Shown here: positions 7,228 through 64,000 of the stretch, in pieces
Layout: every line of letters starts with the position of its first letter
Position numbering within the stretch: position 1 is the first letter of the stretch
NCBI RefSeq assembly: GCF_037392515.1
Contig: NC_090292.1
Location: forward strand, 44,753,747 to 44,817,746
Length of the DNA: 64,000 nt
Source of the DNA: Haliotis asinina
Taxonomy: Eukaryota > Mollusca > Gastropoda > Lepetellida > Haliotidae
Reading direction: 5' to 3'
Notes under the pieces: model-generated
Told to the model about the DNA's origin: nothing
Databases searched by the model: none
Seen by the model: only the letters and a program-made list of their open reading frames with translations
Translations under genes and position numbers: made by a program

Positions 7228-7239
7228 CCAAATACCTGA
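7228..7239 (+). repeat. Left target-site duplication of LINE C
   Basis: CCAAATACCTGA here is repeated at 13316-13327. Both copies are part of LINE B's ORF2, and joining B across them restores continuous homology (LKTKYLKALDLL region). Confidence 0.95.
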
Positions 7240-7259
7240 GTGAGTGAGTTAATATTTAG

Positions 7260-7294
7260 CGTCACATCGGCAATATCTCAGCCATATCGTGACG
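7260..7294 (-). promoter_or_regulatory. Conserved LINE 3'-terminal hairpin
   Basis: CGTCAC (7260-7265) pairs with GTGACG (7289-7294), with an inner GGC/GCC pairing. The same structure ends C, M, E (44652-44686), G and F and the short 3' copies. Being the last structure before the repeat tail, it is the likely RNA site recognised by the element's reverse transcriptase for target-primed synthesis (inference from LINE biology). Confidence 0.75.
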
Positions 7295-7770
7295 AGAACG
7301 TTAAATACTGAAATGAAATATATGGATGCTAAAAAAACCTGTCAACGAGGGACAGTAAAACAACTAGAATATCACAATTTGGATTAAAACTAGTGTGGAA
7401 AGATAAAACTAATATCACTATTCGGACAATACAACATAAAAACAGGCTATAGATCGCCAACAACTGAAGGTAGATCACCATACTAGGGGCCATGGGGACT
7501 TACAGTACGTTTGCTACCTGCATGGTCCCTAGCTGGGTTTACACCATCCCCTCAGCTGCTGGCGACTGTATCCAAGATTAGCCACAATTTAAAATGACAT
7601 ATATTCTACGATTAAAAAGTGGAAGATTAAATCTGACTTATACTGTTTTTGGACTTACGTACCCTCTCAGGAGGACAATAATTTTACGGTACTTCAACCC
7701 CCTTCGAGGATACAGCCACTAACAATCTTAAGTTGATAATTCAACTTCCAATTATAAAATAGTAATCTAT

Positions 7771-10700
7771 TTACAAGTCATGTAACAGTTCTAATTCTTT
7801 TAAAAATGCAATGATTAAATGAGCACTAACATTACTAAAAAGATCCTTCATAGTTCTTGATTTAAAAAAGTTATCCCTTGTGATGGAATATTCCACACAG
7901 TCAAGCAAGACATGCTTGACTGTGATTCTTTCATCACAAGGGATACAAAACGGAGGATCTTCACCTTTAAGCAAATATTCATGTGTGTATCGTGTGTGGC
8001 CAATACGACATCGTCGCATGATGACCTCTTCAAATCTGGACTGACAACCCAAGTAGGTGTAACCAATATAGGGTTTTATTGCATGTAATTTATTTATGCC
8101 CACTTGGGTGTCCCACTTCTTCTGCATCAGATCACGGATGTAAGTTCTAATGCTGGCTTTATAATCAGAGTATGGAATAAGAAGTGGTGTCACAGATTTG
8201 TTGAGTGCTGCCTTGGCAGCAAGATCGGCCATCACATTCCCAGAAATACCTACGTGACTGGGTAACCAACAAAAGACGATGTCGTATTGGCCAGTAGCAA
8301 GAGTATTATACAATTCAATAATTTCAATTAAAAGCGCATGTTTACAAGAAATGTTTTTAATAGCCTGAAGACAAGAAAGAGAGTCGGAATATATTATATA
8401 CTGTTTACGTTTAGGGTGTCTTTGAATATATTTAAGAGCTGTTAATATGGCGTTAGCTTCTGCTGTAAAAATAGAACTATTATCTGGTAATCTAGAAGAT
8501 ATTGTTCTGGATCCAATGACAGTAGCACAAGCTACTGCTCCACCGTCCTTGGACCCATCTGTAAATAAGGATTTGTGATTGTTATATGTATGTTTCAATT
8601 GATTATATTCTTGTTTATACTGTAATTCATTAGTTTCTGATTTTTTAAATGTAGTTAATGTTAGGTCAACCTGTGGCCTAACCAACTGCCATGGGGGAGA
8701 GGAAAGAAGACGGGAAGGAGCTATATTGTTCAGCTCAATACCAGCAGCAGCAATAAACGGCTTTATTCTGAGCCCAAGAGGTGGAACAAGAGAAGACTTT
8801 TTGCTATACAAATCCTCATAAAGGGGATTGAAGACACAGTTATATGCAGGGTTAGATTCGTTAGAGTATAGTTTTATGATATATTGTAAAGATAATTTGA
8901 TACGGCGTTGTGCAAGAGATGGCTCATCGGCCTCAACGTAAAGACTGTCAATAGGTGAAGTTCTGAAGGACCCAAGACAAAGTCTTAGACCTTGGTGATG
9001 GACAGGATCAAGAAGTTTAAGATTGCTTTTGCAGGCTCCACCATAGACGATGGAGCCATAATCAAGTTTAGAACGAACGAGTGATCGATATAAATGGAGA
9101 AGGGTAGCTTGATCCCCTCCCCATTTTGAATTTGAAACCACTTTCAACAAGTCAAGAGCTTTCAGGCATTTACTTTTAAGTGATTTAATATGTGGTAAAA
9201 ACGTTAAGTGTGAATCAAAGATTAGACCCAAGAACTTGGCTTCCTTCACAACCTTAATGGGCGTCCCATCTAGAGACAGTTCAGGGTCTTTATGTGGTTT
9301 GTATTTTCGACAAAAATGTATGCAGTTAGTTTTTGATTTAGAAAATTTAAAGCCGTTTTCTAGACACCATTTATTAATCCTGTTTAAACACAACTGCAAT
9401 TGCCGTTCAATGGTATGCATATTTTTACCACGACAAGAAATATTAAAATCATCCACAAATAACGACCCATCAATTGAATCGTTTAAAACTTTAGATAAAC
9501 TGTTGATCTTGATGCTAAAAAGAGTGACTGACAAAATACTGCCTTGTGGAACACCCTGATCCTGATTGTAATGATCAGACAGGGTAGAGCCCACGCGGAC
9601 CTGGAATTGTCTGTTATTTAAAAACTTGGCAATAAATTCAGGCAAACGACCTCGCAAGCCGAAGTCATGTAAATCTCGTAAAATGCCATATTTCCAAGTA
9701 GTGTCACATGCTTTTTCAAGATCAAAAAAGATAGACACAGCGTGTTGTTTGTTAATCAGTGCATTTTTAACAAATGATTCTAAACGCACTAAGTGATCGA
9801 CAGTACTTCTGTTTTTGCGGAAACCACATTGTATATCTGTGATAAGGTTATTAGTTTCCAAGTACCAAACAAGTCGATTATTTATCATGCGTTCCATGGT
9901 CTTGCAAACACAGCTTGTTAATGAAATCGGACGATAATTGGATGGATCCGTATGATCACGTCCAGGTTTAGGTATTGGTACTACTATGGCATCACGCCAT
10001 GACGGAGGAAAGTTACCCAATGTCCAAATATCATCAAAAATATTTAGGAGAGTTTCTAGGCAGGATTCTGGTAAGTGCTTCAGGAGTTGATAATGTATGT
10101 TATCAGCTCCAGTAGCAGTGTCATGAGCCTGATCAAGAGCAGTATGGAGTTCATGAATAGAAAACGTTTCATTATAATCTTCCCCATTATCAGAATTGAA
10201 ATTAATAGTTTTCTTTTCTTGTTCTTTTTGATACTGCTGGAATTTAGGTAAATAATTAGAAGAGGAAGAGTGTTTAGCGAGTGTTTCGCCCAATTTATTT
10301 GCGATATCTGATTTATCAGTAAGTAATTGATCTCCATCTTTAAGATGATGGACAGTAGATTTAGTACCTTTACCTTTGATTTTCTGGACCATGTTCCATA
10401 CCTTGGACATGGGTGTCCGAGAATTTATTTTAGATACATAATTTTGCCAAGATTGGCGTTTGTTCTGTTTAAAAGTACGCCGTGCTTTAGCATTTAAAAT
10501 TTTAAATTTATTTAAATTATGCACCATAGGATGGCGACGGAAATAATGTTCTGCCTTTTTCCTTGCCTTCCTAGCTTGTTTGCAGTCATCGTTGAACCAT
10601 GGTTTTCTTATGTGTGGAACTACAGAGGACTTTGGTATACACTCATCAGCTATGGAATTCAGTTCATCCGAAAAGCATTTAATAGCATCGGGAACGTCAA

Positions 10701-11457
10701 TAAAACGTTCAGGTGTAAGTTTTTCAGCACACAGTGTTTCATATAAAGGCCAGTTAGCCTTTTTAAAATTCCGTCTTGATGATGGAGGAACATCAGATGG
10801 AGTTACAGCTTTTAATATAGTAGGAAAATGGTCACTTCCACAGAGGTCATCGTGGACGGACCATTCGAATTCATTTAATAGTTCGGAATTTGTCAATGAC
10901 AAGTCGAGAGCAGAATAAGTCCCTGTACCAGGGTGTAAATATGTGTTGGAACCATCATTATAAATACATAAGTCATTGTCAGGACAAAAGTCCTCCAACA
11001 TTTTGCCTCTAGTGTTTGTATTAACACTACCCCAGAGTGGGTTGTGCCCATTTAAATCTCCCATTATAATACAGGGCTTCGGGAGTTTGTCATATAGAGC
11101 TTGAAGATCAGTTTTAGTGAACGTCGAAGACGGCGAAATATAAAGAGAGCATAGCGTAAACGCTACGTGTAAGGTAATTCTCACTGCAACAGCCTGCATA
11201 TTAGTATTAAGTGAAACAGGGCTTTGAATAACGTTTTGTCTGACTAAAACGGATGACCCGCCAGTAGCTCTATCACCCGGAGGTGAAAAAGAATGATATG
11301 CATTAAAATGACGAAGGTCAAATGTATCTGTTTGCTTTAAATATTTCTCTTGGAGACATATCGCTGAAGGTTTGAAATCTTGGACTAATAGCTGTAATTC
11401 ATGTAAATTAGTCCTCAATCCTCTGCAGTTCCACTGTACAATATTATTGGAATAAAC
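7771..11457 (-). CDS. LINE C ORF2: endonuclease - reverse transcriptase - RNase H
   Basis: This about 1,228-residue polyprotein nicks chromosomal DNA, reverse-transcribes the element RNA at the nick and can degrade the RNA strand. The N-terminal endonuclease starts at IVQWNCRGL and shows CLQE, GDLNGHN and GSDHFPT. The central RT has the FFDLEKACD motif A, VPQGSILS and the FVDD catalytic box. A thumb-like region follows, then RNase H with TDGSKDGG, TAEANA, YSDSLSC and MADLAAK, which supply all four acidic residues. A Cys/His-rich C-terminus (CRIGHTRYTHEYLL...CIPCDE...H..LDC) closes it. The frame has no internal stop. There is no ATG near the start: the codon at 11457 is GTT where copy A has ATG, and the frame overlaps ORF1's stop. 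Motif A has Cys where every relative here has Tyr. Confidence 0.92.
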   Translation of the reverse strand, partial: VYSNNIVQWNCRGLRTNLHELQLLVQDFKPSAICLQEKYLKQTDTFDLRHFNAYHSFSPPGDRATGGSSVLVRQNVIQSPVSLNTNMQAVAVRITLHVAFTLCSLYISPSSTFTKTDLQALYDKLPKPCIIMGDLNGHNPLWGSVNTNTRGKMLEDFCPDNDLCIYNDGSNTYLHPGTGTYSALDLSLTNSELLNEFEWSVHDDLCGSDHFPTILKAVTPSDVPPSSRRNFKKANWPLYETLCAEKLTPERFIDVPDAIKCFSDELNSIADECIPKSSVVPHIRKPWFNDDCKQARKARKKAEHYFRRHPMVHNLNKFKILNAKARRTFKQNKRQSWQNYVSKINSRTPMSKVWNMVQKIKGKGTKSTVHHLKDGDQLLTDKSDIANKLGETLAKHSSSSNYLPKFQQYQKEQEKKTINFNSDNGEDYNETFSIHELHTALDQAHDTATGADNIHYQLLKHLPESCLETLLNIFDDIWTLGNFPPSWRDAIVVPIPKPGRDHTDPSNYRPISLTSCVCKTMERMINNRLVWYLETNNLITDIQCGFRKNRSTVDHLVRLESFVKNALINKQHAVSIFFDLEKACDTTWKYGILRDLHDFGLRGRLPEFIAKFLNNRQFQVRVGSTLSDHYNQDQGVPQGSILSVTLFSIKINSLSKVLNDSIDGSLFVDDFNISCRGKNMHTIERQLQLCLNRINKWCLENGFKFSKSKTNCIHFCRKYKPHKDPELSLDGTPIKVVKEAKFLGLIFDSHLTFLPHIKSLKSKCLKALDLLKVVSNSKWGGDQATLLHLYRSLVRSKLDYGSIVYGGACKSNLKLLDPVHHQGLRLCLGSFRTSPIDSLYVEADEPSLAQRRIKLSLQYIIKLYSNESNPAYNCVFNPLYEDLYSKKSSLVPPLGLRIKPFIAAAGIELNNIAPSRLLSSPPWQLVRPQVDLTLTTFKKSETNELQYKQEYNQLKHTYNNHKSLFTDGSKDGGAVACATVIGSRTISSRLPDNSSIFTAEANAILTALKYIQRHPKRKQYIIYSDSLSCLQAIKNISCKHALLIEIIELYNTLATGQYDIVFCWLPSHVGISGNVMADLAAKAALNKSVTPLLIPYSDYKASIRTYIRDLMQKKWDTQVGINKLHAIKPYIGYTYLGCQSRFEEVIMRRCRIGHTRYTHEYLLKGEDPPFCIPCDERITVKHVLLDCVEYSITRDNFFKSRTMKDLFSNVSAHLIIAFLKELELLHDL

Positions 11458-12728
11458 TATCTTTTGGGTGGATTTATTGGGGATCTACCCCGCACTCTTT
11501 TGGAGGGCGACAAGCTATGTGCCCTAGAATGGACGTTTTCAGAAACGTCCATGTCTTCAAGAGACCCGTATTTATTAAACAGTTGAATTTTGTTCTGTGA
11601 CCCTTTAGGAGCTCTGCCACTTTGTTGTTTTGAAGCATCAGGCTTTGGCTTCGGTTTACTTTTCACAGTGTGTTGACTATCAGCTGTCGATTGAGACTTT
11701 GAGTGTGACTGAGAGGATTTGTGATCAGAAGAAGACTTTGATGTACCAGGAAGTGATTCCTCAGTCTGTGATGATATAGCAGTGCACAAAGTCTGTGGAG
11801 AATCACAATTGACCCAAGTCAAGGTAGTTTGGCACCCTGTGGTTGATGTTGTTTTAGAGCTACACCCCGATGATATTTTTGTTACTGCAGCATAACTTTC
11901 CGAAAGTTCAGATCTCTTTACCAGTTTTTTGGCCTCAGAAAAAGAGATATTTGGTGTAAATTTGATTTTATTGATCTCCATTTGCTCTTTCCAAATAGGA
12001 CACTGTTTAGAAAATGACGAATGGTCGCCTGAGCAATTGGTACATTTTTTATAGTCACTGTCACAATCTTCTGTTGTGTGTGTCTTCTCACCACAGTGAG
12101 CACACACAACAGACAATGTGCAAGTATTTACGCCGTGTCCATATTTCTGGCATTTAAAACACCTGAGCGGGTTGGGGATGTAGGTATCAACTGGAATGTT
12201 ACAGTAGCCTGCCTTCACTGATTTGGGAGCATTAGGACATGAAAAAGTAAACAGATAAGTGTTCGTTTTGATGGTTTCACTGTTTCTCCGAGTTGAAAAG
12301 CGCTTGACAAAGAGTACACCTTGATCCTTCATTTCAGATCCTATATCAAGTTCAGACATATCATCAAACAATCGGTCTCGATCTCTAACGATACCTTTGC
12401 TTGAATTCAAGGTTTTGTGTGCAGAAACCGTGACCGGAATACCCACGAAAGATTTGATGTTCAGCAAATTAGTTGCTTGTTGCTTTTTTCCGCACTCTAC
12501 TAACAGGGCACCTGAACGTAAGCGTCTTATGTTCTTCACATCCCCTGCAATACCTTGAATACCCTTGGATACAGCAAAGGGGTTCAACTTTAATGATGTC
12601 TTGTCAGGAGTCTCAATAACAATGAAACGCGGCCAATACTCAATCGATGCAGACGGTCTATGGTCAGTATCAACAGGGTCAATATCAAGTGGACGTTTTG
12701 TTTTTTTTGTTGGGTTCTCATAAGCCAT
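11457..12728 (-). CDS. LINE C ORF1: gag-like nucleic-acid-binding protein
   Basis: ORF1 proteins of this LINE group bind element RNA and form the ribonucleoprotein. I start it at ATG 12728 (MAYENP...). The same ATGGCTTAY start is kept in E and F, whereas the longer frame upstream is not. The order is a basic N-terminus (KKTKRPLD), a conserved RRM-like or esterase-unrelated central domain with YWPRFIVIET and LNPFAVSKGIQGIAGDVKN, then three knuckles: CFKCQKYGHGVNTC, CAHCGEKTHTTEDC and CTNCSGDH with SSFSKQC. A Ser/Gln-rich tail follows, then SGRAPKGSQNKIQLFNKYGS and a basic RVRGRSPINPPKR end. It is uninterrupted at 423 residues. Nature of the central domain is inferred from position only. Confidence 0.92.
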   Translation of the reverse strand: MAYENPTKKTKRPLDIDPVDTDHRPSASIEYWPRFIVIETPDKTSLKLNPFAVSKGIQGIAGDVKNIRRLRSGALLVECGKKQQATNLLNIKSFVGIPVTVSAHKTLNSSKGIVRDRDRLFDDMSELDIGSEMKDQGVLFVKRFSTRRNSETIKTNTYLFTFSCPNAPKSVKAGYCNIPVDTYIPNPLRCFKCQKYGHGVNTCTLSVVCAHCGEKTHTTEDCDSDYKKCTNCSGDHSSFSKQCPIWKEQMEINKIKFTPNISFSEAKKLVKRSELSESYAAVTKISSGCSSKTTSTTGCQTTLTWVNCDSPQTLCTAISSQTEESLPGTSKSSSDHKSSQSHSKSQSTADSQHTVKSKPKPKPDASKQQSGRAPKGSQNKIQLFNKYGSLEDMDVSENVHSRAHSLSPSKRVRGRSPINPPKR

Positions 12729-13257
12729 GTTTAGTTTAAATGGTTCATCATCCGAGCTCCCCACCCACCACGGAGTATCACAAGGACAATGCTAAAGTAA
12801 GCGGGCCTCCAGCTTACAGCACCAAGGATATTCGGATGATATACTCCAGCAGAAGAATTAAAACATTAATAATTCCACCAGATTGGCCCATGAGCCACCG
12901 CCTTCTGGGCATACGACTCTAGGCAAAAATATGAATTAGTAAAATTTGAAATTCAGAAGATCCAAAAATCGGCCAAGACCTAATAATATCCATCTTACGA
13001 TTCTCAAAATTTTGTGTAACATTACATACAGTAATGCTCAGGGCTTGGCGTGACCAGCCGATTGGTTGAACCGGGCCCATTCAACCACCCGTCTAGGTGA
13101 AGTCAGGGCCGAAGTGGTGTGTTGAGCAATAGGAACACTGGTCTTGCTCCCATTGCCCTCAAACACCAGGATCCCCTCCTCCACCGACACAGGGCCGCAA
13201 CCCACGGCAAACGGGTTGGTGGACCAAATATCCCCCCGGGTCCACTACGGGGGTGTC

Positions 13258-13315
13258 GGCGAGCTCTTGGCGTTACCCAGCACCCACCACGAGGAGGTGG
13301 CTCGCCACGGGTGCC
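13258..13315 (-). ncRNA. HDV-like self-cleaving ribozyme at 5' end of LINE C
   Basis: The RNA starts at 13315. P1 is GGCACCC with GGGUGCU, including the hallmark terminal G-U wobble. P2 is GGCGAG with CUCGCC, P3 is CCAC with GUGG, and L3 is CUCCUC. The segment after P1 reads GGGUAAC and then GCCAAG, where the first C is the candidate catalytic cytosine. The target duplication begins at 13316, so the element's physical end equals the predicted cleavage site. Cleavage would free the element's 5' end from upstream transcript. Confidence 0.85.
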
Positions 13316-19372: not shown

Positions 19373-19430
19373 GGCACCCGTGGCGAGCCCCCTCCTGGTG
19401 GTGGGTGCTGGGTAACGCGAAGAGCTCACT
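19373..19430 (+). ncRNA. HDV-like ribozyme at 5' end of LINE D (partly decayed)
   Basis: P1 GGCACCC/GGGTGCT is intact. P2 GGCGAG now faces CTCACT, so it has one mismatch and one wobble. P3 CCCC/GTGG has one mismatch. The catalytic stretch reads GCGAAG instead of GCCAAG. That keeps the C and the AAG, and matches the GCGAA of HDV itself. It is probably weaker than the C, E and F versions. Confidence 0.7.
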
Positions 19431-31143: not shown

Positions 31144-31216
31144 GTTTCTAACGTTTGCCTACTTTGTGGAAAATATGTAATGACAAAACTGTAAACTCGA
31201 AACTAACTAAAGAATC

Positions 31217-31234
31217 AACCACGCTCTGCTACCA
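31217..31234 (-). promoter_or_regulatory. BEL primer-binding site
   Basis: In element sense TGGTAGCAGAGC follows the 5' LTR after a two-base AT spacer. It starts with the TGG expected to pair with a tRNA CCA end. The tRNA identity was not determined. Confidence 0.7.
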
Positions 31235-31236
31235 AT

Positions 31237-31711: not shown

Positions 31712-31716
31712 CAATA

Positions 31717-32396: not shown

Positions 32397-32539
32397 TAAT
32401 TCTGAACTCACAAAAGTCCAGAAACTCTCAGCACTGTGGCCACTCTCTCACAAGGGATTTGGAAAAATTAAACAGGCAGCTGTTATGTATAGGTGCTAAT
32501 GATGAAAAAATGAAAACAAAAATTCGAAAACCCAAAATG

Positions 32540-33540: not shown

Positions 33541-33639
33541 TAGATATAGGTTGAATTTTGTTATATTTATAGAATACCTAAATTCAAAATAATCTCAAGG
33601 CTTAGTATTCTAAGTGTACTGTATATGTTGCTGGAAGTA

Positions 33640-33806
33640 AAGCTCTGTGTTCGGGACCCGTGAAGATCTGGAGTAGAAGAGGGCTTCAACAACCCATGCT
33701 TGCCATAAAAGGCGACTATGCTTGTCGTAAGAGATGACTAACGGGATCGGGTGGTCAGGCTCGCTGACTTGGCTGACACATGTCATCAGTTCCCAATTGT
33801 GCACAT
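33640..33806 (+). mobile_element. SINE 5' portion fused to LINE G
   Basis: Plus-strand copy of the SINE at 3062-3333, from its head (GGACCCGTGAAG at about 33655), through the two tandem GGCGACT motifs, to CCCAATTGTGCA. It then passes directly into LINE G sequence without the SINE's own tail. Confidence 0.8.
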
Positions 33807-36430: not shown

Positions 36431-36442
36431 GACAAGGTATTA

Positions 36443-36724
36443 GTGAGTGAGTGAGTGAGTGAGTTAATATTTAACGTCACATCGGCAATATCTCAGCCAT
36501 ATCGTGACGAGAACATTTTTTACTGAAATGAAATATATGTATAGTGAAAACCTGTCAACGACGGACAGTAAAACAGCTAGAATATCACAAATGGGATTAA
36601 AACCAGCATGGAAAGTTGAAAATAATATCACTATTCGGACAAAACAATATAAAATCAGGCTATAGATAGATCACCAACAGCTGAAGGTAGATCACCATAC
36701 TAGGGGCCATGGGGACTTACAGTA
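36443..36724 (-). mobile_element. 5'-truncated LINE, 3' UTR only, with 12-bp TSD
   Basis: 282 bp of the LINE 3' end on the minus strand, from TACTGTAAGTCCCC (36724) to the hairpin and GAGTGAGTG tail (36443). It is flanked by GACAAGGTATTA on both sides (36431-36442 and 36725-36736). It is a clean retrotransposed copy that shows the last ~280 nt suffice for mobilisation. Confidence 0.92.
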
Positions 36725-36736
36725 GACAAGGTATTA

Positions 36737-37581
36737 ACGGGCGCTTAGCCCCAGCAGCTATTACTGTCTCCAGCTGACGGTGAACTGTGTTGAATGATGG
36801 GTTTTGTTCGGCATTATACTTTAAAGGTGTCATGTATCATGTGTGAATAGTATATGCATTGTTCAGCTTTTTGTGTATCAGAGAAATGGTGACGAAAATG
36901 CGAGCATCATGTATGTCATGTATCATGTTCGTATCGTATGATGTTTTTATATTATATTTTAAAGGGATCAAGTATCATGCGTGAATGTTGTATGCTGTAG
37001 TACAATAAATTTCAGAACAGGCTGTTCTTATTCCCTTGTCAATCTCCCCCGCGCCCCCCCTCCGCGCTTAGTCAGTTACCTACGGGTGACTGATGCACAC
37101 CCTGAAACAAATCGATTGACAAATCCGCTGTGCAAGATAAAAGTAATAAATCAATTAGATTGTTATCGGTTAATCCTTTCATCCGTGTTTGTTATTTTAA
37201 CCCAGTTGATAATTCCTTTTGGTCTTCTTCCAACCATACATTACACAACATACAATACATCAGCCCTTGAGTTACAAGTTTGAATAGTAAGTGCAGACAG
37301 ACATCAGAAATCCTAAATGGGAATCATTGTCGGGCAATTTCGGCATCACAACCAGACTACATCCATTGATACTATTGTTTCATTTATTTAATGCCTGCCA
37401 AGGAAGACAGTCCCTGTGTCCGTCACGGCTGATGGAGCAGGCACTGTCCACCTATCAGCCAGACTACGTAACCGGAAGCGCTTGATTAGGAATGAATAAG
37501 GCCTCGCGGGATGTGATGTCATTGTGAAAGCAAACAATTTTGTTATACACATATTGCAGTTATCACGGTTTTTCTAAAAGT
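36737..37581. other. Non-coding stretch inside the 12.6-kb insertion
   Basis: No recognisable gene. It contains an ATGTATCATGTGTGAAT-type motif repeated near 36832-36845 and 36970-36985, and a C-rich run at 37049-37063. It ends before a short ATG-initiated frame at 37582. Confidence 0.4.
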
Positions 37582-39087: not shown

Positions 39088-39145
39088 GGCACCCGTGGCG
39101 AGCCACCTCCCCGTGGTGGGTGCTGGGTAACGCCAAGAGCTCGCC
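39088..39145 (+). ncRNA. HDV-like ribozyme at 5' end of LINE E
   Basis: Identical fold to that of C and F; the only difference is loop L3, CTCCCC instead of CTCCTC. P1 39088-39094 pairs with GGGTGCT (39118-39124), and P2 GGCGAG (39097-39102) pairs with CTCGCC (39140-39145). The element's target duplication ends at 39087, immediately before G1. Confidence 0.85.
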
Positions 39146-39666
39146 GACACCCCCGTAGTGGACCCGGGGGGATATTTGGTCCACCAACCCGTTTGCCGTG
39201 GGTTGCGGCCCTGTGTCGATGGAGGAAGGGATCCTGGTGGTTGAGAGCATGGGAGCAGGACCATTGCTCCTATTGCTCAACACACCACTTTGGCCCTGAC
39301 TTCACCTAGACGGGTGGTTGAATGGGCCTGGTTCAACCAATCGGCTGGTCATGCTAAGCCCTGTACATGTAAATGTTGTTCACAAATTTGAGTAAATATT
39401 TATTTTTTTTGTCTTGGCTTCATGATGATTCATTTGTATTTCGATTGTACAATTCAAATTTCGTAACTTGCCTAGAGTCGTACGTCCAGAAGGCAGTGAC
39501 TCATGGGCCAATCAAGTGGAATAATTACTTTTGTATTATTCTGCTTGAGTGTATCATCCGGGTATCCTTGGTGCTGCAGGTAGGAAACCTGCCTGCTTTT
39601 AGCATTGTCCTTGTGATACTCCGTGGCGGGTGGGGAGCTCGGATGATGAAACAATATAAACTTACC

Positions 39667-40959
39667 ATGGCTTACGAAACTGCCCTAAAAAAACCAAAAC
39701 GTCCTCTTGATACTACTGATCCTGATGTTGAAGACCAAGGACTGTCCACATCCATTGACTACTGGCCACGGTTTATTGTAATTGAGACCACTGACAACAC
39801 TCTGTTAAAGCTGAACCCTTTTGCGGTATCAAAAGGCATACAGGGCATTGCGGGTGATGTTAGAAACGATAGACGTTTACGAACAGGTTCTTTCCTTGTT
39901 GAGTGCAATAGGAGGCAACAGGCAACCAATCTCCTTTCAACAAAATCATTTGTAGGCATTTCGGTATCAGTCTCTCCTCACCGTACTCTTAACACTAGTA
40001 AGGGTATTGTGAGAGACCGTGATAGACTATTTGCGGATATGCTGGAAATTGACATCGCTGCAGAGATGAAGGACCAAGGTGTGTTATTTGTGAAACGTTT
40101 CACAACCCGAAGAAACAACCAGATCCAACAAACAAACACCTATTTATTTTCATTTTCCACTCCAGCGGCTCCAAAATCAATAAAGGCCGGCTACTGTCAC
40201 ATCAAAGTGGAAACTTTTATTCCTAATCCACTCAGATGTTTCAAGTGTCAAAAGTATGGTCACGGTGTAAATTCCTGCACATTGTCTCTTGTGTGTGCTC
40301 ACTGCGGTGAGAAGACCCACACAACAGAAGATTGTGACAGTAATTACAAGAAATGCACCAATTGTTCAGGAGACCATTCGTCTTTCTCAAAAGAGTGTCC
40401 GATTTGGAAGTACCAGATGGAAATAAACAAACTAAAATTTACTCAAAATATCACCTTTGCCGAAGCAAAACAACTTGTTCAAAGATGCGATCCACAAGAA
40501 ACATATGCTTCTAAAACAAAACCATCATCTGAACCATCCTCTAAGACTTCTAAGTTTTCTTCAGCTGCTCAAACAAACTTGACTTGGGTGCACACTGATT
40601 CCCCAGAGGTTTTTTCACCCGCTATTTCCACTCAGACCGCTGAGCTACTTCCTCGCATGTCGCAAAGTCAATCAGGGCCAGCTTCGGATCATGATTCATC
40701 ATCACAGCCACCTGCAAGGTCTCAATCTTTGTCAAATGTCCAACAAATTCCTAGAGGAAAAACTAAGCCTATGCCTTATTCTTCAAAAAAGCAAAGTGGC
40801 AGAGCCCCAAAAGGGTCTGAAAACAGAATTAAGCTTTATAATAAATACGGATCACTTGAGGACATGGACGTGTCCGAAAACGTCCAATCAAGGGCGCACA
40901 GCTTCTCGCCCTCAAAAAAAGTACGGGGTAGATCCCCAATCAACTCGCCCAAACGATAA
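39667..40959 (+). CDS. LINE E ORF1: gag-like nucleic-acid-binding protein
   Basis: 430 residues from ATG 39667, in an ACCATGG context; the frame stays open further upstream but without conservation. It has the same architecture as C's ORF1: basic KKPKRPLD start, YWPRFIVIET, LNPFAVSKGIQGIAGDV, knuckles CFKCQKYGHGVNSC, CAHCGEKTHTTEDC and CTNCSGDH...C, a Ser/Gln tail, then GRAPKGSENRIKLYNKYGS and the basic KVRGRSPINSPKR end. It is uninterrupted. It stops at TAA 40957-40959, where copy A has TAATG; here the following base makes TAATC, so the overlapping ORF2 start is lost. Confidence 0.92.
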   Translation: MAYETALKKPKRPLDTTDPDVEDQGLSTSIDYWPRFIVIETTDNTLLKLNPFAVSKGIQGIAGDVRNDRRLRTGSFLVECNRRQQATNLLSTKSFVGISVSVSPHRTLNTSKGIVRDRDRLFADMLEIDIAAEMKDQGVLFVKRFTTRRNNQIQQTNTYLFSFSTPAAPKSIKAGYCHIKVETFIPNPLRCFKCQKYGHGVNSCTLSLVCAHCGEKTHTTEDCDSNYKKCTNCSGDHSSFSKECPIWKYQMEINKLKFTQNITFAEAKQLVQRCDPQETYASKTKPSSEPSSKTSKFSSAAQTNLTWVHTDSPEVFSPAISTQTAELLPRMSQSQSGPASDHDSSSQPPARSQSLSNVQQIPRGKTKPMPYSSKKQSGRAPKGSENRIKLYNKYGSLEDMDVSENVQSRAHSFSPSKKVRGRSPINSPKR

Positions 40960-43900
40960 TCCATTCCAAAAATATTGTACAGTGGAACTGTAGAGGCCTA
41001 AGGACCAATTTCAACGAGTTACAGCTACTTGTCCAGGATTTTGCACCATCCGCTTTCTGTCTCCAGGAAACCTATCTGAAGGAGACAGACGCTTTTGATC
41101 TACGTCAGTTCACTTCATATAATTGTTTTTCACCTCCAGGTGATAGGGCCACTGGTGGGTCTTCAATTTTTGTAAAACAGGATGTTATCCATAGTCCTGT
41201 AACACTCACAACTAGTCTCCAAGCTCTTGCAGGGAGACTAACTCTTCACGTTACCTTTACACTATGCTCTTTATATATTTCACCTTCTTCAGCACTCCAG
41301 CAGTCTGATCTTCAAGCTCTCTATGACCAACTTCCTAAACCTTGTATTTTAATGGGTGATCTCAATGGACATAACCCGATTTGGGGTGGTACAAATACAA
41401 ACTCTAAAGGTACAATACTGGAAGATTTTATAGCCAATAATGACTTGTGTATATACAATCATGATTCAAGCACTTATCTGCACCCTGCAACTGGCACCTA
41501 CTCTTCTCTGGATCTGTCTCTTGCAGACCCTTCTCTACTAAATGAATTTGAGTGGTCAGTCCACAATGACCTCTGTGGAAGTGACCACTTTCCAACTATC
41601 TTAACAGCAACTAATCCATCTGATTCTCCATCTTATACAAGATGGAATTATTCCAAGGCAGACTGGTCGTTATTTAAAACGTTATGCACATCTAAACTAC
41701 GGCCGCAGTGTTTCAGTGAAGTAACTGATCCTATTCGGCCTTTTTCTGACACTTTAAATGAAATAGCTGATGAGTGTATACCAAGGTCTTCTACTGCTCC
41801 ACATGTACGGAAACCATGGTTCAATTCCGATTGTAGGCAAGCCAGAAAAGCGAGGGAAAAGGCGGAAAATTATTTCCGCTATCATCCAACTGTCCACAAC
41901 TTGAATAAGTTTAAAATCCTCAATGCGAAAGCCCGTCGTACCTTCAAACAAAACAAACGGCAATCTTGGATGAACTACGTTCCCAGGATTAATTCGCGCA
42001 CGCCAATGTCCAAGGTATGGAACATGGTTCAAAGAATTAAAGGTAAAGGTTCAAAATCTTCAGTTCACCATCTCAAAGATGGTGATAATTTAATTACTGA
42101 CAAGTCCCATATTGCAAATAAAATTGGCGAAACACTTGCCAAAAATTCTTCATCGGCAAATCATGTCCCTGAGTTTCAGAGATATCAGAAGCAACAGGAA
42201 AAGAAAAAACTTAATTTCGAATCAAATAATGGTGAAGACTATAATGAAGTTTTCTCATTACATGAGTTATATACAGCTTTTCACCAAGCTCATGACACTG
42301 CAGCAGGTGATGACAATATTCATCATCAGCTACTGAAACATTTGCCTGAACCATGTCTGGTCACACCTTTAGATATATTTGACAAAATATGGACGTCTGG
42401 AGCATTTCCTCCTTCGTGGCGTAATGCCATTGTAGTCCCAATACCAAAACCTGGCAGGGATCATACAGATCCGTCGAATTACAGACCGATATCTCTCACT
42501 AGCTGTGTCTGTAAAACCATGGAACGTATGGTGAATAATAGAATAGTTTGGTATCTTGAAACCAATAATCTCATTACAAATATTCAGTGTGGTTTCAGGA
42601 AAAATCGCAGTACCATTGATCATTTGGTACGCTTAGAATCCTTCGTGAAAAATGCAATAGTAAATAAACAACATGCTGTATCAATTTTCTTTGATCTTGA
42701 GAAAGCTTATGATACGACCTGGAAGCATGGTATTTTGAGGGATTTACATGAATTTGGATTGAGAGGTCGTTTGCCTCTTTTTATATCAGAGTTTTTAAAA
42801 GACAGGCAATTTCAAGTCCGAGTAGGTTCTACCCTGTCTGATCATTACAATCAGGATCAGGGCGTCCCTCAAGGTAGTATTTTGTCTGTCACTTCGTTTA
42901 GTATTAAGATCAACAGTTTATCCAAGGTTTTAAATGATTCAATTGATGGATCATTATTTGTGGATGATTTTAATATTTCTTGTCGTGGGAAAAATATGCA
43001 CACTATTGAAAGACAACTGCAGTTATGCTTGAACAAAATAAATGAATGGTGTCTTGAAAATGGCTTCAAATTTTCTAAATCCACAACTAATTGCATACAT
43101 TTTTGTAGAAAATATAAGCCGCATAAGGACCCTGAACTATCTTTAAATGGCACTCCCATCAAGGTTGTAAAGGATTCTCATTTAACATTCTTACCACACA
43201 TTAAATCCCTTAAAGCTAAATGTCTGAAGGCACTAGATTTGTTATAGGTTGTTTCAAATTCAAAGTGGGGAGGGGATCAAGTTACCCTCCTTCACTTATA
43301 CAGATCATTGGTACGATCTAAACTTGATTATGGCTCCATTGTGTATGGTGGAGCCTGTAAAAGCAACCTCAAACTATTAGATTCTGTCCATCACCTAAGA
43401 CTTCGTCTTGGATCTTTTCGAACCTCACCTGTTGCCAGTCTCTATGTTGAGGCTGATGAATCATCTCTTTCACAACAATACACAACTTTACAATACACTA
43501 CTAAACTATATTCTAATAAATCTAACCCAGCCTATGACTGTGTGTTCAATCCGCTTTATAAAAATGACAAGAGGTTTTCTCTTGTTCCACCTCTAGGACA
43601 CAGAATTAAACCCTTTCTTTCTTCGGCCGGAATTGAGCTGGAAAACATAGCTCCCTCCCGTCTCCTTTCTTCTCCTCCTTGGCAGTTGGTTAGGCCACAA
43701 GTTGACCTAACATTAACTTCCTTTAAAAAATCAGAAACTAATGAATTACAATATAAACAAGAATATAATCAATTAAAACATAAATATAGCAATTACAAAC
43801 CCTTATTTACAGATGGATCCAAGGACGGTGCTGCAGTAGCTTGTGCCACTGTCATTGGATCGAGAACAATATCTTCTAGACTTTCCGATAACAGCTCTAT

Positions 43901-44590
43901 TTTACTGCAGAAGCAAACGGCATATTAACTGCTCTTCAATATATTCAAAGACACCCTAAACATAAACAGTTTATAATCTATGCAGACTCTCTCTCTTGCC
44001 TTCAGGCTATTAAAAATATTTCTTATAAACATCCACTTTTAATAGAAATTATTGAATTGTACAATAATCTTGCTACTGGCCAGTGCGACATTGTTCTTTG
44101 CTGGTTACCTAGTCACGTTGGCATTTCTGGTAACACAATGGCCGATATTGCTGCTAAAGCAGCACTCAACAAATCTATGACACCACTTCTTATTCCATAC
44201 TCAAATTATAAAGCTGCAATAAGATCTTATATCCGTGATTTGATGCAGAAGAAGTGGGACACCCAAGTGGGTATAAATAAATTACATGAAATAAAACCTT
44301 ATATCGGTTATACTTACTTGGGTTGTCAGTCCAGATTTGAGGAGGTCATTATGCGACGATGTCGCATTGGCCATACGAGGTATACTCACGGGTATTTATT
44401 AAAAGGTGAAGATCCTCCGTTTTGTCTCCCTTGTGATGAAAGAATCACAGTCAAGCATGTCCTGCTTGACTGTGTTGAATAGTCCATCACAAGGGATAAA
44501 TATTTAAATTCACGAACTTTGAAGGATCTTTTCAATTCTGTTAGTTCTCATTTAATTATTGCATTTTTAAAAGAATTAGATTTGCTAAAT
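40959..44590 (+). pseudogene. LINE E ORF2 (EN-RT-RNase H), lightly damaged
   Basis: The frame is open from the ORF1 stop through IVQWNCRGL, CLQETYL, GDLNGHN (first ATG only at 41352) and GSDHFPT, and RT motifs FFDLEKAYD (Tyr kept), VPQGSILS and FVDD, to TAG at 43245. Relative to C it lacks nine residues between VVK and DSHLTF (27-bp in-frame deletion near 43170). After the stop the RT thumb and RNase H continue (43308-43928, TDGSKDGAAV) with a frameshift near 43905, then 44057-44482 to the C-terminal Cys/His region. A TAG replaces a Tyr codon near 44480. The missing ATG and these lesions make it inactive. Confidence 0.88.
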
Positions 44591-44651
44591 GAATTGTCCG
44601 TCGTCGACAGGTTTTTATCATATACATAGATTTCTTTTTTAAGAATGCTCT

Positions 44652-44686
44652 CGTCACGATATGGCTGCAACACTGCCGATGTGACG
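44652..44686 (+). promoter_or_regulatory. LINE E 3'-terminal hairpin
   Basis: CGTCAC (44652-44657) pairs with GTGACG (44681-44686), followed by TTAAATGTTAACTCACTCAC. Same structure as in C; putative RT recognition site. Confidence 0.7.
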
Positions 44687-44710
44687 TTAAATGTTAACTC
44701 ACTCACTCAC

Positions 44711-44723
44711 TCAAGACTTTACC
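44711..44723 (+). repeat. Right target-site duplication of LINE E
   Basis: TCAAGACTTTACC, matching 39075-39087. The first bases could also be read as part of the ACTC tail. Confidence 0.9.
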
Positions 44724-44763
44724 CATCATCGTAATGTTTCATTATCTACTTTGACCAAGCACT

Positions 44764-45030
44764 GCTCCCTAGAATATATGATGGACACAACTTCACCGCT
44801 CCCTAGAATATATGATGGACACAACTTCACCGCTCCCTAGAATATATGATGGACACAACTTCACCGCTCCCTAGAATATATGATGGACACAACTTCACCG
44901 CTCTCTAGAATATATGATGGAAATGACTTCACCGCTCCCTAGAATATATGATGGAAATGACTTCACCGCTCCCTAGAATATATGATGGAAATGACTTCAC
45001 CGCTCCCTAGAATATATGATGGACTTAACT
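44764..45030. repeat. 34-bp tandem repeat, about eight copies
   Basis: Unit starts GCTCCCTAGAATATATGATG, with period 34 (starts at 44764, 44798, 44832 and so on). Early units read GGACACAACTTCACC and later ones GGAAATGACTTCACC, so the array has two blocks of subtypes. A separate near-perfect duplication of about 54 bp follows at about 45097-45205. No coding meaning is apparent. Confidence 0.9.
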
Positions 45031-45205
45031 TATGCATTAGCTGTATTTCTTTCCAGAAACTCCAACAGCGCATGAAGAATCCAGCTACTAGCTGACTGGA
45101 CTGAGAAAGGAAACAGAAGGTGACTGTAGTCATAACCCCAGAATTGAGAGTGGACTGAGAAAGGAAACAGAAGGTGACTGTAGTCATAACCCCAGAATTG
45201 ACATC

Positions 45206-58096: not shown

Positions 58097-58378
58097 ATAC
58101 AAATTACTATTTATATCTCAGATAGGTCTAAGGAAGGTGGCGCAGTAGCGTGTGCCACTGTCTTTTGATCCAGAACAATATCTTTTAGATTACCTGATCA
58201 CACCTCTATTTTCACAGCTAAAGCAAACGCAGTATTAACTGTTCTTAAATATATTCAAAGACACCCTGAACTCAAACAAAACATAACCTATTCAGACTCT
58301 CCTTTTGCCCTCAGGCTATGAAAAATATTTCTTGTGACCATCCACTTTAATTGATACTATTGAATTACATAATGATCT
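58097..58378 (+). pseudogene. LINE copy J, RNase H fragment, cut by LINE F
   Basis: Homologous to the RNase H start of C's ORF2 (SxxxGGAVACATV, then TAxANAVLT), with shifts. It breaks off at AATGATCT (58378), where LINE F's ribozyme begins; the downstream half of J was not found. Confidence 0.8.
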
Positions 58379-58436
58379 GGCACCCGTGGCGAGCCACCTC
58401 CTCGTGGTGGGTGCTGGGTAACGCCAAGAGCTCGCC
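58379..58436 (+). ncRNA. HDV-like ribozyme at 5' end of LINE F
   Basis: P1 GGCACCC (58379-58385) pairs with GGGTGCT (58409-58415), P2 GGCGAG (58388-58393) with CTCGCC (58431-58436), and P3 CCAC (58394-58397) with GTGG (58404-58407). L3 CTCCTC (58398-58403) can form P1.1 with the G's at 58416-58418. The candidate catalytic C is 58424. L3 and the GCTGGG-AAC segment match the HDV ribozyme nearly base for base. LINE J's sequence ends exactly at 58378. Confidence 0.87.
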
Positions 58437-58510
58437 GACACCCCCGTTGTGGACCCGGGGGGATATTTGGTCCACCAACCCGTTTGCCGTGGGTTGCGGC
58501 CCTGTGTCGG
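58435..58510 (+). other. Structured 5' UTR domain after the ribozyme
   Basis: An outer stem CCGACAC (58435-58441)/GTGTCGG (58504-58510) encloses two hairpins: GTGGACC/GGTCCAC (58449-58455, 58469-58475) and CAACCC/GGGTTG (58476-58481, 58491-58496). The stems are kept in C and E and mostly in D. Function unknown; promoter, translation or RNP roles are possible. Confidence 0.6.
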
Positions 58511-58965
58511 CGGAGGAGGGGATCCTGGTAGTTGAGGGCAATAGGGACCTGTAACCGTGTTCCTCTTGCTCAATATACCACTTTGGCCCTGACTTCGCCT
58601 AGACGGGTGGTCGAATGGGCCCGGTTCGACCAATCGGCTGGTCATGCCAAGCCCTGTGCATGGACTGTGTATGTGTCATTGCACAAATATTATTTTGAAT
58701 TGTTCGAATTTTCTTGGCACTACTATTGATCTCTAACGTTTTGGATTGTGAAATATGATCATATGAATTTTGCCTAGAGTCTTATGCCTGAAGGCGGTGG
58801 CTCATGGGCCAATCTGGTAGATCAATTATTTATAATTCTTCTGCTGGAGTATATCATCTGAGTATCCTTGGTGCTGCAAGTCGGAGCCCACTTGTTTTTA
58901 GCATTGTCCTTGTGATACTCCGTGGTGGGTGGGGAGCTCAGATGATGAACCATATTAAAGTAACT

Positions 58966-60390
58966 ATGGCTTACACAACCCCCATTAAAAGAAACAAGCG
59001 TCAACTTAACAATGATGATGATGAACTACGACCGTCTATTCCGACCGTTGAATACTGGCCACGATTTCTAGTGATCGAGACTCTTGACAAATCACCTTTC
59101 CAATTAAACCCATTTGCGGTATCTAAAGGTATACATGGCATAGCAGGTGAGGTACGAAATATCAGACGACTGCGTTCAGGTTCCCTACTTGTAGAATGTA
59201 GCAGGAAACAGCAATCAACCAACCTGTTGTCAACTGAGCTCTTTGTTGGAGTCCCGGTTTCAGTTACTCCACACAAGACTCTGAACACGAGCAAAGGCAT
59301 TGTTAGAGACCGAGATCAATTGTTTGCAGATATGACTGAGTGTGACATCGTATCAGAAATGAAAGATCAAGGGGGATCATCCATTCTAGTCAGACAAAAC
59401 GTTATTCAAAGCCCTGTTCCACTTAATACTAATATGCAGGCTGTGGCAGTGGAAATTACTTTACATGTAGCGTTTACGCTATGCTCTCTTTATATTTCGC
59501 CGTCTTCAACGTTTGCCAGAACTGATCTTCAGGCTCTGTATGACCAACTCCCGAAGCCCTGTATTATAATGGGAGATTTAAATGGACACAACCCACTCTG
59601 GGGTGGTGTAGATACAAACACTAAAGGTAAATTGCTGGAGGACTTTTGTTCTGACAATGATATATGTATTTATAATGATGGTACCTATTCTGCTCTCGAC
59701 TTGTCATTGACAAATTCAGAACTATTAAATGAATTCGAATGGTCAGTCCACGATGACCTATGTGGAAGTGACCATTTTCCTACTGTATTAAAAGCTGTAA
59801 CTCCATCTGATGTTCCTCCATCATCAAGGCGGAATTTTAAAAAGGCTAACTGGGCTTTATATGAAACACTGTGTGCTGAAAAACTTAAACCCAAACGTTT
59901 TATTGACGTTCCTGATGCTATTAAATGTTTTTCTGATGAATTGAATTCCATAGCTGATGAGTGTATACCAAAGTCCTCTGTAGTTCCACACATAAGAAAA
60001 CCATGGTTCAACGATGAGTCCAAACAAGCTAGGAAGGCAAGGAAAAAAGCAGAACATTATTTCTGTCGCCATCCTATGGTGCATAATTTAAACAAATTTA
60101 AACTTTTAAATGCTAAAGCACGGCGTACTTTTAAAGAGAACAAACGCCAATCTTGGCAAAATTATGTATCCAAAATAAATTCTCGGACACCCATGTCCAA
60201 GGTATGGAACATGGTCCAGAAAATCAAAGGTAAAGGTACTAAATCTATTCTCCATCATCTTAAACATGGAGATCAGTTACTTACTGATAAATCAGATATT
60301 GCCAATAAACTGGGTGAAACCCTTGCTAAACATTCTTCCTCTTCAAATTATGTACCAAAATTCCAGCAATATCAAAACAACAAGAAAAGA
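58966..60390 (+). pseudogene. LINE F fused ORF1-ORF2 remnant
   Basis: ATG 58966 (MAYTTPIKRNKRQL) opens ORF1 with YWPRFLVIET and LNPFAVSKGIHGIAGEV. At about 59371 the frame jumps from SEMKDQG directly into the ORF2 endonuclease (GSSILVRQNVIQSPVPL), in frame, losing the zinc knuckles and the WNCRGL/CLQE part of the nuclease. GDLNGHN and GSDHFPT remain, then the linker, and a frameshift near 60380 ends the conserved reading. The product would be a chimera lacking RNA-binding knuckles and part of the nuclease active site. Confidence 0.85.
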
Positions 60391-62790
60391 AAACTATTAA
60401 TTTTAATTCCGATGATGGGGAAGATTATAATGAAACGTTTTCTATTCATGAACTCCATTGTGCACTTGATCAAACTCACGATACTGCTACAGGAGCTGAT
60501 AACATACATTATCAACTAATGAAACATTTACCAGAATCCTGTCTTGAAACTCTCCTAAATATTTTTGATGGTTTTTGGACATCGGGTAACTTTCCTCCTT
60601 CATGGCGTGATGCCATAGTAGTACCAATACCTAAACCTGGACGTGATCATACCGATCCACCCAATTATCGTCCGATTTCATTAACAAGCTGTGTTTGCAA
60701 GACAGTGGAACGCATGATAAATAATCGACTAGTTTGGTACTTGGAAGCAAATAACCTTATCACAGATATACAGTGTGGTTTCCGCAAAAACAGAAGTACT
60801 GTCGATCACTTAGTGCGTTTAGAATCATTTGTTAAAAATGCACTAATTAATAAACAACATGCTGTGTCTATCCTTTTTGATCTCCAAAAAGCATATGACA
60901 CAACATTTTGAAATATGGTATTTTAAGAGATTTACATGACGTCGGCTTGCGAGGTCGTTTACCTCAATTTATAGCCAACTTTTTAAATGATAGACAGTTA
61001 CAAGTTCGAGTGGGTTCTACCCTGTCTGATCACTACATTCAGGATCAGGGTCTTCCACAAGCAGTATTTTTTCTGTTACACTTTTTAACATAAAGATTAA
61101 GAGACTATCAAAAGTTTTAAACGATTCAATTGATGGATCGTTATTTGTGGATGATTTTAATATTTCTTGTCGTGGGAAAAACATGCATATTAATGAAGGG
61201 CAACTGCAGTTGTGTTTAAACAAAATAAATAAATGGTGTCTTGAAAACGGCTTTAAATTTTCTAAATCCAAAACCATTTGTATACATTTTTGCAGAAAAT
61301 AAAAGCCACATAAGGACCCTGAACTATCACTAGATGGCACTCCCATCAAAATTGTAAAGGAGGCCAAGTTCTTGGGCCTAATCTTTGACTTCCACTTAAC
61401 GTTTCTGCCTCATATTAAGTCCTTTAAAACTAAATGCCTGATGGCGCTTGACTTGTTGAAAGTTGTTTCCAACTCAAAGTGGGGAGGGGACCAAGCAACA
61501 CTCTTACATCTATGTCGATCATTCGTCGGTTCGAAACTCGATTATGGCTCCATCGTATATGGTGGAGCCTGCAAAAGTAACCTTAAACTTCTTGACTCTG
61601 TCCACCATCAAGGCTTAAGACTTTGTCTTGGTTCTTTCAGAACCGATGAACCATCTCTTACTCTACGTCGTATAAAATTGTCTTTACAATACATTACTAA
61701 ATCATATTCTAATGAATCTAACCCTGCATATAACTGTGTCTTCAATCCCGTTTATGAGGATTTATATAACAAAAAGTCTTCTCTTGTCCCACCTCTTGGG
61801 CACAGAATTAAACCATTTATTTCTTCTGCCGGTATAGACCTGGAAAGTATATCGCCTTCCCGTCTTCTTTCTTCTCCTCCTTGGCAGTTGGTTAGGCCAC
61901 AAGTTGACCTAACATTAACGACATTTAAAAAATCACAAACGAATGAATTACAATATAAACAAAAATATAATCAATTAAAACATAAATATAGCAATTACAA
62001 ACCCTTATTTACAGATGGGTCCAAGGACGGTGGCGTAGTTGCTTGTGCCACTGTCATTGGATCCAGAACAATATCTTCTAGATTACCAGATAATAGTTCT
62101 ATTTTTACAGCTGAAGCTAACGCCATATTAACAGCTCTTAAATATATTCAAAGACACCCGAAACGTAAACAGTATATAATATATTCCGACTCTCCTTCTT
62201 GCCTTCAGGCTATTAAAAACATTTCTTGTAAACATCCACTTTTAATAGAAATGATTGAATTGTACAGTAATCCTGCTACTGGCCACTGCGACATAGTCCT
62301 TTGTTGGTTACCTAGTCACGTAGGCATTTCTTGGTAACACAATGGCCGATCTTGCTGCTAAGGCAGCACTCAACAAATCTGTGACGCCACTTCTTATTCC
62401 ATACTCTGATTATAAAGCTACAATAAGATCTTATATCCGTGATCTGATGCAGAAGAAGTGGGACACCCAGGTAGGTATAAATAAATTACAAGAAATAAAA
62501 CCTTATATCGGTTATACTTACTTGGGTTGTCAGTCCAGATTTGAGGAGGTCATTATGCGACGATGTCGCATTGGCCATACGAGATATACTCACGACTATC
62601 TATTAAAAGGTGAAGATCCTCCGTTTTGTATCCTTTGTGATGAAAGAATCACAGTCAAGCATGTCCTGCTTGACTGTGTTCAATATTCCATCACAAGGGA
62701 TAAATATTTTTATTCAAAAACTTTGAAGGATCTTTTTGAAAATGTTAGTTCTCATTTAATTATTGCATTTTAAAAAGAACTAAATTTGCT
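60391..62790 (+). pseudogene. LINE F ORF2: RT and RNase H (broken)
   Basis: RT resumes in another frame (MKHLPESCLETLLNIF at 60519), with DLQKAYD motif A. A shift at 60905 and a GS-motif deletion near 61060 follow, then FVDD (61147) and a TAA at 61301. The thumb and RNase H are open from 61372 to 62337 (TDGSKDGGVV, TAEANA, SDSPSC). An extra T at 62332 then shifts the frame before MADLAAKA (62342-62773). The C-terminal Cys/His region is complete. At least five lesions. Confidence 0.87.
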
Positions 62791-62871
62791 AAATGAATTG
62801 TAAATATATAAATATTTTATTCTTGCAATTTCGAATTAGGAACTTAGAGTGTTAGTGGCTGTATCCTCGAG

Positions 62872-62887
62872 GGGGGGGGGGGGGGGT
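62872..62887. repeat. Poly-G run in LINE F 3' UTR
   Basis: A homopolymer of about 16 G where other copies have a shorter G run (GAAGGGGGTT). Prone to slippage and sequencing error. Confidence 0.85.
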
Positions 62888-63350
62888 TTAAAGCACTGTA
62901 AAATTATTGTCCTCCTGAGAGGGTACGTAAGTCCCAAAACATTTGAAGTCAAATTTGATATTCCTGTTTTTTAATCGTGGTATTTCTGTCATTTTAATTT
63001 GTGGCTAATCTTGCATACAGTCACCAGCAGCTGAGAGGATGGTGTACACCCAGCTAGGGACCATGCAGGTAGCAGAAGTACTGTAAGTCCCCATGGCCCC
63101 TGGTATGGTGATCTACTTTCAGTTGTTGGTGATCTATATAGCCTGTTTTTTATATTGTGTTGTCTGAGTAGGGATACTAGTTTCAACTTTTCACGCTAGT
63201 TTTATTTCTCATTGTGATATTCTAGTTGTTTTACTGTCCTTCGTCGACAGGTTTTTATCATATGCATAGATTCCATTTTTAAGAATGCTCTCGTCACAAT
63301 ATGGCTGCAATACTGCCGATGTGACGTTAAATATTAACTCACTCACTCAC

Positions 63351-64000
63351 TTATATTTATGTTTCAATTGACCATATTCTTGTTTATGCTGATATTCATT
63401 GCTTTCTGATTTTTTAAATGTAGTTCATGTTAGGTCAACTTGGGGCCTAATCAAATGCCAAGGAGGAGAAGAAAGAAGACGAGAGGGAGCTATATTTTCC
63501 AGTTCAATGCTAGAAGCAGCAAGAGATGGCTTAATTCTGAGCCCAAGAGGCGGAACAAGGGAAGATGTTTTGTTATACAAATCCTCATAGAGACACAATT
63601 AAATGCGGGATTAGACTCATCAGAAGCTAATTTTGTAATGTATTCTAAAGATAGTTTGATACGACGTAAGTTGAGAGAAGGTTCATCAGCTTGGACGTAT
63701 AGACTGTCGACAGGAGATGTTCTAAAAGAACCGAAACAAAGTCTTAGGCCTTGGTGGTGAACAGGATCAAGTAGTTTTAGGTTGCTTTGACAAGCTCCAC
63801 CATACACGATGGAGTCGTAATCAAGTTTAGATAAGACCAGTGATCTATATAAGTGAAGAAGGGTAGTTTGATCCCCTCCAAATTTTGATTTTGAAACAAC
63901 CTTTAATAAATCGAGTGCCTTCATGCATTTGGCGTTAAGGGATTTAATATGCGGCAAAAAGGTCAAATGTGAGTCGAAAATAAGTCCCAAGAACATGGCC
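63351..64000 (-). pseudogene. LINE copy H, RT thumb region, truncated by window edge
   Basis: Minus-strand ORF2 fragment entering at 64000 with FLGLIFDSHLTFLPHIKSL, through the LDYDSIVYGGACQSNLKLLD and SPVDSLYVQADEPS segments (63490-63996), to the region before RNase H. A deletion and frameshift lie near 63590. It stops at about 63351, where LINE F's tail begins, so H and F lie tail to tail. Confidence 0.85.

Follow-up and report, generated by a model that had tools for sequence, protein, structure and literature searches.

The stretch of Haliotis asinina DNA analysed here (64,000 nt, hereafter the window) holds several copies of one LINE family that share a 58-nt sequence at their 5′ ends, which raises the question of what this sequence does and whether it sets the point at which the element begins. 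A well-supported answer, in which function is deduced from sequence, is that the 5′ start of this abundant LINE is an HDV-like ribozyme. The LINE copies concerned are:

7237..13315 (3′ end approximate), minus strand: copy C, full length, with ORF1 (12764-11457) and ORF2 (11418-7771) open and a (CTCA)n 3′ tail
39088..44713 (3′ end approximate), plus strand: copy E, with a target duplication flush with G1 and an interrupted ORF2
58379..63351 (3′ end approximate), plus strand: copy F, with broken ORFs and no target duplication found

LINEs of the I superfamily encode an APE endonuclease, a reverse transcriptase (RT) and an RNase H in ORF2, together with a CCHC-type ORF1. The 1,215-aa ORF2 of copy C matches Pfam PF14529, PF00078 and PF00075, which correspond to these three domains and bear out the initial annotation's description of an RNase H-bearing family. 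Three CCHC-type knuckles were recognised by eye in ORF1, and the two ORFs together show the domain set of the I superfamily. The best named relatives of ORF1 come from Haliotis species. According to the accessible part of a survey focused on bivalves (PMC10294476), molluscs have Nimb, Ingi and one unknown clade from this superfamily. The open ORFs of copy C and the exact target duplications suggest that the family is apparently young.

Relatives by ORF2 (L001-L004) were found in Solemya and in a Sulfurovum MAG; none was found in viral contigs, and the pattern matches L005 and L006 were taken as chance. L002 was the only one observed to extend to the 5′ end of the element, where neither the ribozyme descriptor nor Rfam detected a ribozyme. 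Its ORF1 and ORF2 matches lie at about 7890-14050 of a 537-kb scaffold labelled as Solemya velum gill symbiont, and represent either host contamination joined during assembly or a real transfer.

The window also contains a broken BEL/Pao-type retrotransposon at 26518-31143 (minus strand) with Peptidase_A17, integrase zinc-binding and DUF1759 pieces, its RT and protease pieces falling just under the cut-off. A Tc3/mariner-like transposase ORF of 396 aa lies at 20526-21716 (minus strand), between pieces matching copy C downstream of copy D, and a tandem array of about 68-bp units follows directly after copy E at 44760-45031 (plus strand).

The 58-nt fold in the window

With G1 placed at 58379 in copy F, the sequence forms P1, P2, P3 and P1.1 in the order of the HDV double pseudoknot. 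P1 (1-7/31-37) ends in the wobble pair G1-U37, with the predicted cut directly 5′ of it; P2 (10-16/52-58) has seven Watson-Crick pairs and P3 (18-20/28-30) three base pairs. L3 (21-27) reads UCCUCGU, and P1.1 joins C22 and C23 to G38 and G39. J4/2 is GC(C)AAG, in which C46 is the candidate catalytic residue. P4 is absent, GUAAC (40-44) separating P1.1 from G45 of J4/2; because GUAACG (40-45) is too short for a helix, the fold lacks a defining part of the HDV ribozyme proper (RF00094). The features in the window are:

58379..58436, plus strand: HDV-like ribozyme of copy F, intact, identified by descriptor, Rfam below gathering, pair check and covariation
58379-58385/58409-58415, plus strand: P1 of copy F
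58388-58394/58430-58436, plus strand: P2 of copy F
58396-58398/58406-58408, plus strand: P3 of copy F
58399-58405, plus strand: L3 of copy F
58400-58401/58416-58417, plus strand: P1.1 of copy F
58424, plus strand: candidate catalytic C of copy F
58378/58379, plus strand: predicted cut of copy F
13258..13315, minus strand: HDV-like ribozyme of copy C, intact and identical to F, G1 = 13315
39088..39145, plus strand: HDV-like ribozyme of copy E, with the single L3 change U24C, G1 = 39088
19373..19430, plus strand: decayed HDV-like ribozyme of copy D, with P3 and P2 mismatches and a changed L3
2639..2696, minus strand: ribozyme remnant of copy A (a fifth, 5′-damaged copy), recognisable from L3 to J4/2, its 5′ strand lost or replaced

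The complete double pseudoknot, with every pair present, occurs in copies C, E and F. The initial annotation had located C, D, E and F correctly, and the terminal G-U pair of P1, P2, P3 and the GCNAAG segment that it described are present in C, E and F. Its assignment of one fold with L3 CUCCUC or CUCCCC to all four copies holds for these three but not for D, which has lost the A-U pair of P3, carries one P2 mismatch and has L3 changed to UCCUGGU.

A mechanical HDV descriptor run on both strands of the window returned three sites, exactly C, E and F, with three matches in total across 30 whole-window dinucleotide shuffles and none in 3,000 local shuffles; an earlier, looser version had given 12 window matches, mostly noise, and was tightened. 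At gathering score, Rfam has no match in the window. Below that score HDV-F-prausnitzii (RF02682) falls exactly on C, E and F, and a search with 58330-58530 alone listed four matches, three of them of HDV type (RF02682, E 0.02; RF00094, E 0.094; RF01787, E 0.72). The structure-based search that the initial annotation had proposed picks out the three intact copies, but not at gathering level. Since the scores remain sub-gathering (22.7 against 44 for RF02682, 24.2 against 50 for RF00094), the ribozyme is not filed in either family; it resembles both in core layout and in its 3-bp P3, and its L3 and J4/2 residues align to the Rfam HDV consensus. The nested folding energy is ordinary (z -0.30) as computed by a program that cannot represent pseudoknots. 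A longer, G-U-rich P2 partner in the descriptor output (58482-58490) is unsupported by the subfamily data and was rejected, because the GAACGGC copy in L019 keeps GTTTGCCGT unchanged although its 52-58 strand is GCCGTTC.

Physical ends and compensatory variation

In copy C, a 12-bp target duplication (TCAGGTATTTGG) stops one base before G1, as does the duplication of copy E (CTCAAGACTTTACC), which confirms the initial annotation on both. No duplication was found for copy D (19700-37000 searched) or copy F (62800-64000 searched). Both D and F begin where a fragment of a same-family copy ends (18422-19372, minus strand, and 58119-58378, plus strand, respectively). Twenty long copies with the exact start, taken as 8-kb stretches with 19 distinct flanks, extend these results: a duplication is flush with G1 in 14, of which 11 are exact, at least 10 nt long and adjoining the (CTCA)n tail, and three (L019, L028, L034) carry one or two substitutions. 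The other six (L016, L024, L025, L029, L031, L032) gave none. As a control, pairing each 5′ flank with the 3′ flanks of other copies (396 pairs) produced no match longer than 5.

The same end is reached when copies are selected by an internal landmark, which has 2,275 exact matches in total. The 67 tested are all those from the part of contig C1 that both match lists span; 54 have the exact 17-nt start 86-94 nt upstream of the landmark, and the remaining 13 have mutated ribozyme-derived sequence there, with at least one substitution and with bad damage in L093, L095 and L099. The initial annotation had proposed that the ribozyme defines the 5′ end of the family and had staked this on full-length copies starting at GGCACCC. 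As far as sequence can tell, that proposal stands, the fold lying at G1 of full-length copies. No common motif emerges from 74 upstream flanks (at most 0.29 bit over the 12 positions before G1). G is depleted at -12 to -10 (3, 5 and 6 of the 74 flanks), close to the distal edge of the target duplication, a possible sign that the endonuclease has a weak preference.

Conservation is concentrated at this end of the element. The first 120 nt are 98-100% identical among C, E and F, against 79-90% in the next bins and 40-56% in the worst (bins of 90-100 nt). The exact first 17 nt have 1,753 + 1,695 = 3,448 matches in the H. asinina genome and 0 + 0 for the reversed control. A pattern forcing position 11 off consensus, whose matches cannot overlap the exact set, adds 656 + 710 = 1,366 copies with an altered 5′ strand of P2. 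Common 5′ flanks mark some copies as segmental duplicates of a single insertion (L031/L032, L061/L062).

In the HDV-like class the active-site C of J4/2 precedes N-A-A or N-G-A, and HDV J4/2 tolerates variation in a way that agrees with a free position 47 among fixed 46 and 48-50. Across 25 copies with the exact first 17 nt, C46 and AAG at 48-50 are invariant, and position 47 is C in 14, T in seven and G in four. A second set, an alignment of 28 sequences that takes in more decayed copies, has C46 in 25 and the G1-U37 pair in 25; C46 is lacking in L035, L036 and L053.

The most informative changes are those in P2. Among 100 listed of the 1,366 variants, a count by eye gave 78 with a plain GAAGAGC or GAACGGC 5′ strand and 22 others. 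Every fifth of these 100 places was sampled (20 copies, 19 distinct flanks), and 16 keep seven of seven standard P2 pairs: in 15 the strands are GAAGAGC/GCTCTTC or GAACGGC/GCCGTTC, and L066 has one wobble. The exceptions are L062 and L074 (six of seven), L073 (five of seven) and L065, which has its sequence replaced beyond the core. A further 14 rare variants picked by eye mostly have one or two mismatches, indicating decay, with L087 alone fully paired. P2 exists in three subfamilies matched on both sides. In the 28-sequence alignment, four of the seven P2 pairs are altered on both sides (27 such cells), and the P2 covariation score of 0.457 was reached by none of 500 shuffles, slid registers giving at most 0.083. 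Paired cells (94.7% of cells over the 28 sequences) and double-change cells likewise lie above all 500 shuffles. This does not extend to how many pairs are altered on both sides or how many further pair types occur (311 and 399 of 500; 99 and 207 of 500 in the other run), because the P2 changes come in three subfamilies and so amount to few independent events.

P1 hardly varies. Covariation was sought among 57 matches with an off-consensus base 34, of which 53 keep A4; a compensating T4 occurs in two, one of which looks like a chance match while the other, the credible L053, has lost C46. Of 20 copies from this search, 14 entered the alignment, and L040, L041, L044, L049, L050 and L052 were left out, their sequence being interrupted or out of register past L3. 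Failure of pair 4-34 in 12 of 28 sequences thus reflects an alignment chosen in part by forcing position 34 off consensus. L054 contributes to the alignment a second ribozyme start within its stretch (G000:C13:40372417-40372628), where a GAACGGC-type ribozyme is broken after P3 by a copy starting exactly at GGCACCC. This is either one element inserted in the ribozyme of another or a template jump.

Proposed self-release and competing explanations

Taken together with the fold, these patterns make it very likely that the first 58 nt act as a P4-less HDV-like self-cleaving ribozyme, which would release the element at G1 during transcription and precede full-length reverse transcription. A read-through RNA spanning a copy would fold into the double pseudoknot and be cut just before G1, freeing an element RNA that begins GGCACCC. 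If this cut RNA serves as template, reverse transcription running to its end would give new copies starting exactly at G1, and each full-length insertion would bring its own cutting device to the new site.

An internal promoter starting at G1 could also set the 5′ end, with the conserved sequence acting as promoter DNA and its structure incidental. Transcription from +1 would likewise give flush ends and a conserved 5′ 120 nt, and the accessible text on L1Tc describes Pr77 as both promoter and ribozyme (PMC4035085). However, neither the paired changes in P2 nor a free base 47 amid fixed neighbours is required of promoter DNA, and the explanation appears unlikely. By analogy with L1Tc, a promoter and a ribozyme may coexist at the same place.

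The conserved fold might instead be a non-catalytic structured RNA, such as a protein-binding, packaging or translation element, or a ribozyme that has lost catalysis. Cleavage is a prediction, and a second possible structure lies directly downstream:

58441..58475, plus strand: possible H-type pseudoknot just 3′ of the ribozyme, with S1 58441-58446/58456-58461 and S2 58449-58455/58469-58475

Its stems (CCCCCG/CGGGGG and GTGGACC/GGTCCAC) recur at the same place in C, D and E, and one of 300 shuffles was as good. The GAAGAGC subfamily can form TCCCG/CGGGA with TGTGGAC/GTCCACA, an automatic search in the GAACGGC subfamily did not pick the same S1, and the L002 pseudoknot is a weak one, equalled in 43 of 300 shuffles. 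In alignment, the fixed residues nevertheless correspond to those of HDV models, and the start of the fold coincides exactly with the element's physical terminus, the position a cut site must have, which leaves a non-catalytic role decidedly improbable.

A different repeat lies at about 3330-3150 (minus strand) and about 33655-33800 (plus strand); it is presumably a short repeat common in abalone that ends in a (CTCA)n tail. Its 5′ part can fold into a comparable pseudoknot of different sequence (TGAAGGCC/GGCCTTCA). It bears the TCGTAAGAGGCGA motif, as do L002 and copy A.

A nested 14-pair hairpin (1-15 with 23-37), at -21.5 kcal/mol in copies C and F, competes with the active fold and counts as evidence against the ribozyme. 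Conservation of this hairpin as such is scarcely credible and was rejected on covariation: it does make up most of the minimum-energy nested fold predicted for F, but its pairs 12-26 and 13-25 are broken in nine and six of 28 sequences, its covariation does not exceed shuffles, and the changes that break it are compensated in 52-58, so that with P2 kept at seven of seven pairs in variants a plain hairpin is insufficient as an explanation.

Relation to known systems and implications

L1Tc bears an RNase H, and the 5′ RNA of R2 contains a pseudoknot. That LINEs can begin with an HDV-like ribozyme is established for R2, R4, RTE and L1Tc, as the accessible parts of two articles state (PMC3774820; PMC4035085). 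The ribozyme of abalone would thus join a known class, and the initial annotation overstated how notable it is, as the L1Tc/ingi ribozymes (PMC4035085) and a ribozyme reported from Haliotis discus illustrate. The latter is described as HDV-like, P4 being replaced by 5 nt (Webb and Luptak 2011, cited in PMC3774820), which fits GUAAC (40-44) of the present ribozyme in a species of the same genus. It is very probably the same ribozyme family, matched by description and not by sequence.

The L1Tc/ingi LINEs of trypanosomatids, which carry the HDV-like Pr77, inhabit unrelated hosts, and the activity of Pr77 was measured whereas that of the abalone ribozyme is predicted (PMC4035085, in its accessible part). 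Like the abalone LINE, R2, including the P4-less silkmoth ribozymes, has a 5′ HDV fold that frees the element from a co-transcript, with P4 dispensable (PMC3774820, as excerpted). Unlike it, R2 inserts site-specifically into 28S genes, with a cut that most species place upstream of the junction (PMC3774820). The abalone LINE has 5′ flanks with no common motif, and its predicted cut coincides with the element end. Literature searches, with key subscription papers outside their coverage, found no publication on this abalone LINE. A ribozyme at a LINE 5′ end is an already known trick; what the analysis adds is the carrier element with its flush ends, its copy number and its compensated P2 subfamilies.

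A more far-reaching proposal is offered tentatively, as a possibility that may well prove wrong: that one LINE family outside L1Tc/ingi has spread through the host genome in thousands of copies (at least 4,814 matches to the exact patterns, segmental duplicates among them), each of which brings in a self-cleaving cassette lacking P4 together with an R2-like pseudoknot, and that subfamilies rebuilt P2 in step. If true, a ribozyme-plus-pseudoknot 5′ module would be common to R2-type and I-type LINEs, and host transcripts would acquire sense-strand cut sites from copies throughout the genome.

Ultimately, the analysis ties a putative HDV-like ribozyme to an abundant molluscan LINE family with flush ends and natural compensatory variants. 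Ribozyme-set 5′ ends thereby become testable outside R2 and trypanosomatids, and the thousands of copies with three versions of P2 form a ready mutational series.
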